Part shown: positions 27,706 to 31,855 of the stretch, piece by piece | Numbering within the stretch: the first letter of the stretch is position 1 | Layout: each line of letters begins with the position of its first letter | Assembly (NCBI GenBank): GCA_017792365.1 | Contig: CP051229.1 | Span: 620,001-684,000 of the forward strand | Direction of reading: 5' to 3' | DNA: 64,000 nucleotides | Origin: Hyphomonas sp. | GTDB taxonomy: Bacteria > Pseudomonadota > Alphaproteobacteria > Caulobacterales > Hyphomonadaceae | Notes under the pieces: model-generated | The model's input: the letters and a program-made list of their open reading frames with translations, nothing else | Told to the model about the DNA's origin: nothing | Database searches by the model: none | Position numbers and translations under genes: made by a program

Positions 27706-27807
27706 GAACGGGCGATCTGAGCGAGTTTCTGTCCTGGGCTGGCCTCAAACCTGACAACCGGCTTGTGCATATGTATCTTGGGCGTCGGAGGAAAGAGCCA
27801 GGCTCGA

Positions 27808-29322
27808 ATGAGGCGAATATTGCGATCAGCTTTCGGTCCTGGTCCTAGCGGACACGACCGGCCAGTGGCGTTCGACCGTCCGGTCTTCTGGATCGGCGTT
27901 GCTGGACTGATCCTGACGGGTCTCATCACAGTCTGGTTCGGGCCGCAATCACACGCCAACACCGAAGATCAGGTAGAGCGCGCCGCGTCAGCCGCCTTGG
28001 CCGCCGGCGGCCACGACTGGGCCACCGCGAAGGCGTACGGACAGCGGGTCGCGCTCTCGGGCCAGGCGCCGGACGAACAGAGCCTTCAGGAAGCATCAAA
28101 CGATGTGATGGCCGCGCTCGGTCCCGGCGGCGTCTTCATCGGCGGTGTGACCAAGGTCACAAGCCGCGACGTCGACGTTGTGCCAATGGTTTCTTCCTTC
28201 GCATGGGGCGCCATTCGCGAAGGACGCCAGATCACGCTCGAAGGCGTTGCTCCCGACAGGCAATCGCTGGACGCCATCGAGACCGCAGCGCGAGATATGT
28301 TCGGCGCCTCGAACGTGATCAGCCGCATGAGCCTGGCGGATGGGGCGCCCGATCAGGTGGACTGGAGCAGGGCGGCGACGGAATCGCTCGCCGCGCTCAA
28401 CCAGCTCGACCGCGGATCGGCAGAGCTCACCAATGACCGTCTCGTCCTCGCAGGCCAGACCTTGAACGAGGAGACTGCACAGGCCGTCCAGGCGTCTCTG
28501 GATGCACTCGATGCAGGGGTGGCGATCACAACGTTCATATCGGGTCCGGCGGAGTGGACTGCGACCTTGGGCAATGGCGAACTCGATTTCTCCGGAACAG
28601 TCGCCGACGAAGAGACAAGGAACGCGCTGGCGGAACTGGCGCGCTCGGCGTTCGATGAGCAATTCGCTGACAATAGCCGTATCGGCGCTGCCGGCGCATG
28701 GGGCCCGAGGGTTCGTTTGGCGCTGCCGCATTTCGCACGTTTCCGGTCGGGCCAGATTTCGGTTCTGGAAGATCGCATCAGGATCAGCGGTCGCGCGCCG
28801 GCGAGCGCCATCACCTTTCTCCGGGAGGACATGAGCGCCCTGCGCGATGACTATGAGGTGCTCTACAGCGTCGAGGAATCGGCCTCCGAAGCGACGGAAC
28901 TCGCAGGCATCAATCTGGACTCCGCCGATCCCACCGAACTGCGGGCGTCGTGCCAGCAAGGCTTCACGCAGATCATGGCGAGCAATCAGATACTCTTCGA
29001 ATCCGGTTCATCTCGGATCGACCGGGTAAGCGGCGAGACGCTCGACAAGCTGATCGGCGTGATGCGCCGCTGTGACACGCTGCGGATCGAAGTGCAGGGC
29101 CACACCGACGCAACAGGGCGCGGCGCCGACAACAAGGAATTGTCGACGCAACGCGCGAACGCTGTGCGGACCTACTTCATCGAAGCGGGGATTGAACCAG
29201 ACCTGCTTTCCGCCATGGGTTATGGCGAGGAACAGCCGGTGGCCAGCAATCGCACCGCCGAGGGCCGCCAGCAAAACCGGCGGATAGAATTTTCTGTATC
29301 GAGCGCGGAGGATGCGCAATGA
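27808..29322 (+). CDS. Membrane-anchored OmpA-family protein with BON-like repeats
   Basis: 504-residue protein from ATG 27808 (27763 is an upstream alternative). A basic N-terminus and one helix (FWIGVAGLILTGLITVWFG) predict an inner-membrane anchor with the rest periplasmic. The middle holds five similar BON-like units, each starting with a strand-turn such as VALSGQAPDEQSL, ITLEGVAPDRQSL, LVLAGQTLNEETA, LDFSGTVADEETR and IRISGRAPASA. The C-terminal OmpA-like peptidoglycan-binding domain has ILFESGSSRI, VQGHTDATGRG, STQRANAVRTYFIEAGI and NRTAEGRQQNRRIEF. The stop overlaps the next gene by 4 bp (ATGA). Function unknown; see the hunt section. Confidence 0.88.
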   Translation: MRRILRSAFGPGPSGHDRPVAFDRPVFWIGVAGLILTGLITVWFGPQSHANTEDQVERAASAALAAGGHDWATAKAYGQRVALSGQAPDEQSLQEASNDVMAALGPGGVFIGGVTKVTSRDVDVVPMVSSFAWGAIREGRQITLEGVAPDRQSLDAIETAARDMFGASNVISRMSLADGAPDQVDWSRAATESLAALNQLDRGSAELTNDRLVLAGQTLNEETAQAVQASLDALDAGVAITTFISGPAEWTATLGNGELDFSGTVADEETRNALAELARSAFDEQFADNSRIGAAGAWGPRVRLALPHFARFRSGQISVLEDRIRISGRAPASAITFLREDMSALRDDYEVLYSVEESASEATELAGINLDSADPTELRASCQQGFTQIMASNQILFESGSSRIDRVSGETLDKLIGVMRRCDTLRIEVQGHTDATGRGADNKELSTQRANAVRTYFIEAGIEPDLLSAMGYGEEQPVASNRTAEGRQQNRRIEFSVSSAEDAQ

Positions 29323-30115
29323 CTTGGTTGTTGGCGCACATGTGGTTGGCGCTGCTGTTTGCGGCTGCCTTTGGCGGCCTGATCGGCTGGGCGCTCCGTC
29401 ATGTGTCAAAGCGCGACAGCGCCGCGATGACGCACGAGCGCGCATCGGCAGGCGCGGGCCTCGCCGATGCCGAGGCGAGGGCGCGAATCGTCGAACTGGA
29501 AACGCAACTCGCGGCGGAACGCGATGAACTTACCGCGCTGCGCGCCAGCGCGGTCCCCGGTGAACCGCAGCCAAGCGTCGCTGAGGAACCGGAGGAAGGG
29601 TCGGTCGAGTGGCGCAATCGGTACCTCGAGTCCCGCGTGCGCTTCCTGGAAAAACAGCTGGTCGAAGCGGAAGAGCGCACGGTCGAGCAGCCCAAACCTC
29701 CGGAAGAAGACGACGAGGCGACACGGCTGGTGTGGCGCAATCGCTACCTCGAAGGCCGTGTCCGCTATCTCGAAGATGAACTCGCAAAGGGCGGCAGCCT
29801 CACGCTCGCCACGCCACATGCGCCCGCCGGCGCGAAAACCAAGGCGCCGACAGGCAGCAAGCCGACCACGCTGGATGGCCCGCGCGGCGGCAAGGCGGAC
29901 AACCTGAAACAGATCGGCGGCATTGGCCCGAAGATCGAACGCCTGCTCAACGATATGGGCGTCTATCACTTCGACCAGATCGCCGGCTGGACGGACACGG
30001 AGATCGCCCGGTGAACTCCGAAATCTCGTTCAAGGGCCGCATCGAGCGCGAGAACTGGGTCAGTCAGGCCGCCGCGCTCGCAAAAGGCCTCCAGCCCACG
30101 GGCAAGAGCCGCTAA
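29319..30115 (+). pseudogene. Membrane-anchored coiled-coil HhH protein, frameshifted near its 3' end
   Basis: About 265 residues when repaired. One N-terminal helix (WLALLFAAAFGGLIGWAL) is followed by RHVSKR, so the rest is predicted cytoplasmic. Then come a long acidic coiled-coil region containing two copies of a WRNRYLE-RVR-LE motif about 45 residues apart, a low-complexity Ala/Lys/Pro-rich linker, and a C-terminal helix-hairpin-helix domain: DNLKQIGGIGPKIERLLNDM, VYHFDQIAGWTDTEIA, and after the shift VNSEISFKGRIERENWVSQA. One base is missing near 30010 in a CCCGG run. HhH domains of this type bind DNA or act as protein modules. Coupled to the OmpA/BON gene. Confidence 0.78.
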
Positions 30116-30900: not shown

Positions 30901-31855
30901 CTATCGCTCGCCGAAGACATGCTGGATCGCACGATCTGCTGCGGTGGATGCGGGCAGGGAGCCAGCCAGCACCTGTTTGCGCAGATTGAGGATTTCCTGT
31001 CCCACGCCACTCCGGCTGGCGAAGTCTGTCGTGATCGCGTCGACAAGCAGCGAATCGAACCAGCGACCTTGCTGTGCGGCGCGCCGCCTCACGGGCGCCG
31101 TTGGCGCTGGAGATCTTCCTGTGTTGCTCGATCAGCGACCACACCTCATCCAGTCCATCGCCGGTCGCGCCCGACACCAGTCGCGTCGGCGGATTCCAGT
31201 CCGGATCGATGGGCTCGAGAATGTGAAGCGCATTGGCATAGGTGCGTCCAGCGCGCCTGGCGGCCTCAGGGTCGATGTCGGACTTGTTCACCGCAATCAT
31301 GTCGGCCGCCTCAAGCACCCCCTTCTTGATGCCCTGAAGCTCATCGCCAGAATTGGGCAGCATCAGAGCCAGGAAGAAATCAACCATGTCGGCGACAACC
31401 GTCTCAGACTGTCCAACCCCCACGGTTTCCACGATAATCACATCGTAGCCGGCCGCCTCGCACAACAGGATCGTCTCACGCGTCGTCCGGGCGACGCCGC
31501 CGAGTGATGCCCCTGCCGGGGAGGGACGCACGAAGGCGTTGGGATCCACCGCAAGGCGCTCCATGCGGGTCTTGTCGCCAAGTATGGAGCCGCCGGTACG
31601 CTTGGACGTCGGATCCACCGCCAGCACGGCCACCCGATGCCCGGCGCCGGTGAGCAGCGTGCCAAACGCATCGATGAAGGTTGATTTGCCGACGCCCGGC
31701 GGGCCGGTCACCCCGATGCGCTCGGCGTTGCCCGTGTCCGGCATGACAGTCTCAAGCAGCCGGCGCGCTGCGTCGCGGTGATCGGCCCGGCGTGACTCCA
31801 CTAGCGTGATCGCCCGGGCCAGACCGGCGCGGCTGGACAGGTCGGCAGCAACCAT
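30901..31855 (-). pseudogene. meaB: Methylmalonyl-CoA mutase-associated GTPase MeaB, frameshifted near 3' end
   Basis: G3E GTPase that gates cofactor loading and protects methylmalonyl-CoA mutase. It carries Walker A GPPGVGKSTFIDAFG, VLAVDPTSKRTGGSILGDK, the switch DVIIVETVGVGQSETVV and the guanine-specificity NKSD. The conserved frame runs to KISSANGA and continues one frame over as RRRAAQQGRWFDSLLVDAI to a stop at 30901. The shift is best explained by one extra base in a GGG run near 31094. It sits with mutB on the same strand, as expected for a MeaB partner. The start overlaps nothing and follows YbjQ by 2 bp. Confidence 0.88.

Follow-up and report, generated by a model that had tools for sequence, protein, structure and literature searches.

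The window, i.e., the whole stretch of 64,000 nt from Hyphomonas sp. analyzed here, contains two overlapping genes on the forward strand, ORF1 (coordinates 27,808–29,322) and ORF2 (29,319–30,014). ORF1 starts with the ATG at 27,808, a TTG at 27,763 being a possible alternative, stops at 29,322, and encodes a membrane-anchored protein of 504 aa, in which five BON-like repeats are followed by an OmpA domain at the C-terminus. Its N-terminal transmembrane helix (27,883–27,939) is preceded by Arg, consistent with an N-in, C-out orientation, and would be an uncleaved anchor, with signal-peptide cleavage as the other possibility. The AF2 model of the deduced product contains five strand-strand-helix-strand units, at residues 73–113, 133–176, 202–245, 250–292, and 314–355, which correspond to BON-like repeats 1 to 5 (28,024–28,146, 28,204–28,335, 28,411–28,542, 28,555–28,683, and 28,747–28,872); the mean pLDDT of this model was only 60, with values mostly of 70–90 for repeats 2–5 and lower for repeat 1. 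Only one repeat, the second, holds a match to the Pfam BON profile (PF04972) over the cut-off, and the presence of the BON fold in several copies is thus based on one profile match plus the five modeled units. The OmpA domain (28,993–29,280) had low confidence in the AF2 model, and hence was judged from its sequence: residues 396–491 matched PF00691 with an E-value of 5.5e-23 and 81.6 bits, against a curated cut-off of 27.2, and contain both the Asp of the GHTD motif (codon 29,107–29,109) and the Arg of the LSxxR motif (codon 29,152–29,154), which we take to be the residues that bind diaminopimelate.

The start codon of ORF2 overlaps the stop codon of ORF1 in an ATGA sequence (29,319–29,322) and is preceded, seven bases upstream, by GGAGG (29,307–29,311), resembling a ribosome-binding site. 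ORF2 encodes a protein with a single transmembrane helix (residues 4–22; 29,328–29,384), two copies of a coiled-coil-like WRNRYLE repeat, WRNRYLESRVRFLEKQ (29,610–29,657) and WRNRYLEGRVRYLEDE (29,733–29,780), and a C-terminal helix-hairpin-helix (HhH) domain, designated here H3TH. The five BON-like repeats, the OmpA domain, the ATGA overlap, the membrane anchors, and the HhH domain had all been described in a previous sequence-only reading of this DNA, and were all confirmed here. This reading was silent, however, on the fact that the frame of ORF2 ends early, at 30,014, inside the HhH domain. Only the first half of the domain is in frame (residues 193–230; 29,895–30,008), whereas the second half (30,009–30,115) is found, intact and with its conserved residues, in the next frame after an apparent frameshift, as indicated by the homologous proteins from relatives L077 and L082, whose alignments are split between two frames, before and after 30,005–30,011. 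A nearby gene on the minus strand (30,907–31,855), which we take to be MeaB-like, is also frame-broken, around 31,097–31,128, as seen from a two-frame alignment with the proteins from L073 and L075. Since the two breaks lie within around 1.1 kb and the sequence flanking them is intact, they are likely to be sequencing or assembly errors, although true mutations are possible. The break within the HhH domain could also suggest that the window contains a decaying pseudogene pair, but the intact remainder of the domain in the next frame and the break in the MeaB-like gene fit better with a sequencing error, making decay a very improbable explanation. The sequence was used as it stands, leaving the frame breaks unmended.

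We deduced the topology of both proteins and of their homologs from hydropathy and from the number of Lys and Arg residues around the helix. The helix of ORF2 is not preceded by any Lys or Arg and is followed by such residues, which corresponds to an N-out, C-in orientation. Likewise, 28 out of 32 ORF2-type proteins lack these residues before the helix, the four exceptions having over-long or unclear starts, and 30 of 32 contain them after it; conversely, 29 of the 32 OmpA partners show them before their own helix. The location of the HhH domain in the cytoplasm is independently supported by the occurrence of the same domain in proteins that reside there, namely ribosomal proteins, NuoE, and phasins. 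Both the charge pattern and these carriers, therefore, lead to the same prediction as the sequence-only reading, in which the coiled coil and the HhH domain of ORF2 were placed in the cytoplasm. The WRNRYLE module is present in six to seven copies in homologs from two other loci (L076, 6,831–9,500; L077, 5,061–7,631), as compared to two in the window, indicating that the cytoplasmic arm of ORF2-type proteins varies greatly in length.

A search with the A1 domain profile in the own genome and 40 relatives produced 114 matches, from 37 of the 41 genomes. The surrounding loci were retrieved for 113 of them; for the remaining one, on contig 3 of G005, the coordinates place an OmpA match upstream. 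Including an additional ORF found in a retrieved locus (uL3, in L210), we classified 114 ORFs bearing the H3TH domain: 38 were TM-anchored, defined by a best 19-residue hydropathy of at least 1.7 near the N-terminus and no other recognized domain, and the others were 25 bL21, 19 NuoE, 17 phasins, nine bS1, three uL4, one uL3, and two unassigned ORFs, of which that from L159 is only a fragment, lying at the end of a contig. An ORF of the OmpA family was found directly upstream of 33 of the 38 TM-anchored proteins, in the same strand and with a gap of −125 to 70 bp, while none of the 74 H3TH proteins with another recognized N-terminal domain had an OmpA neighbor in these genomes. As PF00691 yields only two to 10 matches per genome, adjacency by chance should be rare, and the association of the two genes among close relatives is far beyond chance. 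From the five TM-anchored proteins lacking an OmpA neighbor, two (L171 and L174) were preceded by a relative of ORF1 that contains only BON repeats, with the whole OmpA domain absent, and for the other three (L100, L103, and L188) the ORF1 profile did not retrieve anything within 350 bp.

The association was less strict in more distant bacteria. Among the 19 non-own loci from the class sample, 11 contained what we judged to be a TM-anchored H3TH protein, of which three (L125, L126, and L127) had an OmpA gene directly upstream and eight did not. Two of these eight adjoin NuoE, as is the case with protein-O (see below), and TM-anchored H3TH proteins with no OmpA gene directly upstream occur in other families of the class (L124, L129, L131, L132, L135, and L136). 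In a set of 40 loci, which were hand-picked, partly for their long frames, and do not constitute a random sample, four of the six TM-anchored proteins had an OmpA gene within 300 bp upstream, and another one at 343 bp. As to the question raised in the sequence-only reading, whether the two genes are always neighbors across alphaproteobacteria, their adjacency is thus conserved in most cases among the relatives, with OmpA or BON-only partners, and in only three of 11 cases in the class sample, outside of the order.

In total, pairs were found in at least seven families (labeled f1, f3, f4, f62, f69, f104, and f131), and the loci include Hyphomonas or other Hyphomonadaceae (L038, L039, L042) together with L040, whose record is named Candidatus Sulfopaludibacter. 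We could distinguish two types of pairs, one with WRNRYLE repeats, mostly with a BON-rich OmpA protein and overlapping genes, and the other without these repeats; the type labels derive from the pattern of motifs, and members of other families with a single copy of the motif group elsewhere. Trees of the OmpA and H3TH proteins from 39 pairs showed a largely parallel grouping, with a Mantel r of 0.36, uncorrected for species relatedness, that was reached by none of 2,000 permutations; common descent alone could contribute to this parallelism. A search among plasmids retrieved a single record, covering 26% of the query and with no annotated feature in that region. Our literature searches on the pair gave no paper, and among the titles listed by those on the domain, its carriers, and ArfA, none dealt with the OmpA/H3TH pair. 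The pair is, then, a conserved two-gene envelope module for which we found no published description.

An alignment of the OmpA domains from 40 pairs, including that of the window, revealed the Asp and Arg signature in 31 of them; this number includes the Asp of L039, which is probably a coincidence of the alignment. The Asp was lost in the other nine (L038, L040, L042, L084, L085, L086, L157, L168, and L189), eight of which conserved the Arg; L086 showed neither, although in this case the OmpA ORF is long, matches only weakly, and leaves the binding-site columns unsure. This loss, together with the absence of the OmpA domain in the partners from L171 and L174, suggests that binding to the cell wall is common, yet not required for retention of the pair. 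The proposal that the OmpA domain binds peptidoglycan agrees, therefore, with the signature of the window and of most other pairs, whereas it does not extend to certain lineages that keep the pair without the signature. At the other end of the system, the H3TH domain can apparently be lost from the pair: in G017, a draft genome, the pair is present, but the ORF2-type protein (L078, 5,552–6,718) stops just short of the HhH.

These losses bear on the possibility that there is no bridge at all, i.e., that ORF1 is an envelope protein similar to ArfA/OmpATb, while ORF2, a membrane protein co-expressed with it, carries the HhH tail as a stabilizing or regulatory appendage. Indeed, the best Foldseek match of the ORF1 model was Rv0899/OmpATb (2l26; E-value 6.4e-9), a protein with BON and OmpA domains, and the homolog from L039 reached 57.8 bits with the ArfA_OmpATb_N model, which is nevertheless below its cut-off of 81. 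However, the pairing with the H3TH protein has been retained in at least seven families and across paralogous types whose trees are largely parallel, and we consider this explanation improbable.

The H3TH domain responds to the consensus DDLKxIxGIGPKLExxLNxxGIYHFxQIAxWxxxxxxWVDxxLxFKGRIxRExWVEQAxxLA, with a GxG hairpin (GIGPK in the window) and two HhH-like units; the AF2 model for the domain from L039 had a pLDDT of 82 and consisted of five helices. Two Arg residues are nearly invariant, one being present in 43 and the other in 42 of 45 sequences. We did not find a Pfam model covering the whole domain: Cdd1, HHH_5 and others match weakly its first half, below the cut-off, except for HHH_5 in L183 and IMS_HHH in L043. 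As deduced from the carriers, the possibility that the domain was specific for the OmpA pair was dropped: it occurs as a tail of around 65 residues in alphaproteobacterial NuoE, bL21, uS2, bS1, phasins, uL4, uL3, ABC ATPases, and PHB depolymerases (L041, L108, L130, L156, L183, L208, L210, L224, L228, and L236), and the NCBIfam models for NuoE, bL21, uS2, and PhasinPhaH already include it. The N-terminal parts of the other carriers were assigned by Pfam to uL4, uL3, S1 repeats, phasin, uS2, branched-chain and oligopeptide ABC ATPases, and PHB depolymerases. Profile matches in PDB included a chain named after complex I (9wqv_a; 9e-31) and protein-O from the RC-LH1 complex of Dinoroseobacter shibae (2.9e-29). 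The domain was present in 13 of 144 genomes from the class sample and in 82 of 299 from the phylum sample, given without its out-of-class share, and every genome among the matches listed for the latter was from the same class or closer. A bL21 protein with two tandem H3TH domains (L043, 4,533–5,471) appears in a record titled Granulosicoccaceae, presumably a gammaproteobacterial family.

The domain of the pair is homologous to that of the phasin PhaH, because the NCBIfam model PhasinPhaH (NF045508) matched it with E-values of 1.6e-15 in relative L039 and 9.8e-7 in the half-domain of the window; neither protein is a PhaH as a whole, since they scored 57.9 and 30 bits, respectively, against a cut-off of 250. 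In control genomes, the model exceeded the cut-off in one out of 14, and Caulobacter vibrioides was among the two with matches. According to what is stated on PhaH from Caulobacter in a review (PMC13052382), its HhH domain binds DNA nonspecifically. DNA is thus the best documented ligand for the domain, and the only one with published support, although on our analysis it is not secure and a protein would be nearly as likely.

The charge of the domain argues for caution in this respect. The domains from the pairs were net acidic in 36 of 45 cases, counting the half-domain of the window, with mean net charges of −3.0 and −3.5 in two groups of 17 and 15 domains, and 40 of 45 cytoplasmic parts (after residue 40) had a net negative charge, the lowest value being −197. 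In the same genome, the HhH segments from the apparent RuvA, UvrC, Pol IV, and RadC varied from +2 to +6, and the apparent NusA repeats had charges of −14 and −8; these names, as well as uL4, were assigned in this comparison by recognition and not by a profile search. Linkers preceding the domain were basic in bL21 (mean +7.2, n = 25) and acidic in phasins (mean −6.9, n = 13), whose domains were near neutral (mean −0.8, n = 13). Among individual members of the pairs, one (L088, 5,450–6,589) contains a very basic tail (+25) after the H3TH, with repeated KPGPKP motifs that resemble DNA-binding tails, and in two others (L082, 4,616–6,529; L083, 4,780–6,813) the cytoplasmic parts have a net charge of −178 and −197, mostly accumulated in the stretch preceding the H3TH.

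These charges are compatible with an alternative in which the tether is the same and the H3TH domain serves for docking between proteins, perhaps homotypic, instead of for DNA binding; the pair would then hold assemblies bearing the domain (ribosomes, complex I, granules), or a single common partner, near the envelope. In agreement with this, the carriers enumerated above, together with protein-O, are mostly not DNA proteins, and the average acidity of the pair domain is shared with the apparent NusA repeats; NusA repeats bind proteins. Structural comparisons point in the same direction: in a second structural search (VIA) residues 351–420 of NusA were among the best matches (Z 6.3), next to the N-domain of RadA (Z 6.4), and the top Foldseek ranks with the model of the domain were SAM domains, albeit weak, with a best E-value of 1.3. 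The Z scores of RadA and NusA were too low to name a function from either of them, and this assignment was rejected. Conversely, a phosphate ligand would fit the two Arg that hardly vary and the GIGP hairpin, the linkers of bL21 are basic, and the genome of the window shows few carriers, with only two A1 matches (ORF2 and bL21) and a uL4-like tail. Additionally, we know of no common protein partner for the H3TH domain. The published ligand that we found for a carrier, PhaH, is DNA in the text of the review (PMC13052382), and docking to proteins is in our opinion a real but rather doubtful possibility.

We conclude that the two proteins most likely form a membrane tether, anchored to the wall, that shows a docking domain to the cytoplasm. 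The N-terminal helix of the ORF1 product would hold it in the inner membrane, its five BON repeats would span the periplasm, and its OmpA domain would grip the peptidoglycan. The product of ORF2 would insert its short helix beside it, in the membrane, where the two may touch, and extend into the cytoplasm a coiled-coil arm of variable length with the H3TH docking domain at its tip. The ligand of this domain might be a nucleic acid; the simplest candidate is the DNA of the nucleoid, given the DNA binding reported for PhaH, and the wall would thereby keep the nucleoid, or any other structure that carries the ligand, close to the envelope. The tether is supported by the conservation of the pair (33 of 38, plus two), the parallel trees, the charge pattern, the Asp and Arg signature, the homology to PhaH, and the near-invariant Arg, and it is weakened, particularly with respect to DNA, by the acidity of the domains, the loss of the Asp in nine of 40 pairs, the partners without an OmpA domain, the TM-anchored H3TH proteins without such a neighbor, the loss of the HhH in G017, and the frame break in this genome. 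Of the cell wall-to-chromosome bridge put forward in the sequence-only reading, the part from the wall to the cytoplasm is consequently well supported, while for the chromosome the DNA binding attributed to PhaH in the review stands against the mostly acidic domains of the pair; the whole trans-envelope tether with a nucleic acid ligand is, for us, a tentative proposal that falls somewhat short of being probable.

Considering that the carriers comprise ribosomal proteins, complex I, storage-granule proteins, ABC ATPases, and a photosynthetic complex, it is also conceivable, although unlikely, that alphaproteobacteria use the H3TH domain as a general hitch, positioning large assemblies via a single ligand common to all of them, and that the OmpA/H3TH pair fixes this system to the cell wall. 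If the tether proposed here is correct, it would link peptidoglycan mechanically and directly to the nucleoid or the translation machinery in alphaproteobacteria, and would offer a testable role for a widespread tail domain whose functions are called obscure in the section on protein-O of PMC12079452. Even with a ligand other than DNA, the pair would remain a conserved two-gene envelope module.

Several known systems resemble parts of the pair. ArfA/OmpATb (Rv0899) from Mycobacterium tuberculosis combines, as ORF1, BON-type repeats with a C-terminal OmpA domain, and presumably also has an N-terminal membrane helix. It differs from the system described here in the five BON repeats of ORF1 and, to our knowledge, in an operon without an HhH partner; besides the low score of L039 with its model (NF051434), this family was absent from the best 25 of 41 families retrieved with ORF1 from the window. 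MotB and TssL, found among the NCBIfam and PDB matches, are likewise membrane proteins with a peptidoglycan-binding OmpA domain, but they have other partners, and ORF1 did not reach the thresholds of the models listed for MotB and TssL. With respect to ORF2, protein-O from D. shibae RC-LH1 (PDB 8yy9; PMC12079452) is also membrane-anchored and contains a flexible linker and a C-terminal H3TH domain, which was untraceable in the map. As described in the section on protein-O of that paper, however, it has an N-terminal helix-turn-helix TM domain within a photosynthetic complex, its gene is located between nuoE and nuoF, and no OmpA partner is named there. Finally, PhaH from Caulobacter crescentus (Salinas et al., 2023, as presented in PMC13052382) possesses a C-terminal HhH domain homologous to that of the pair; nevertheless, phasin domains are closer to neutral, and PhaH ties PHB granules, whereas the pair sits in the envelope.
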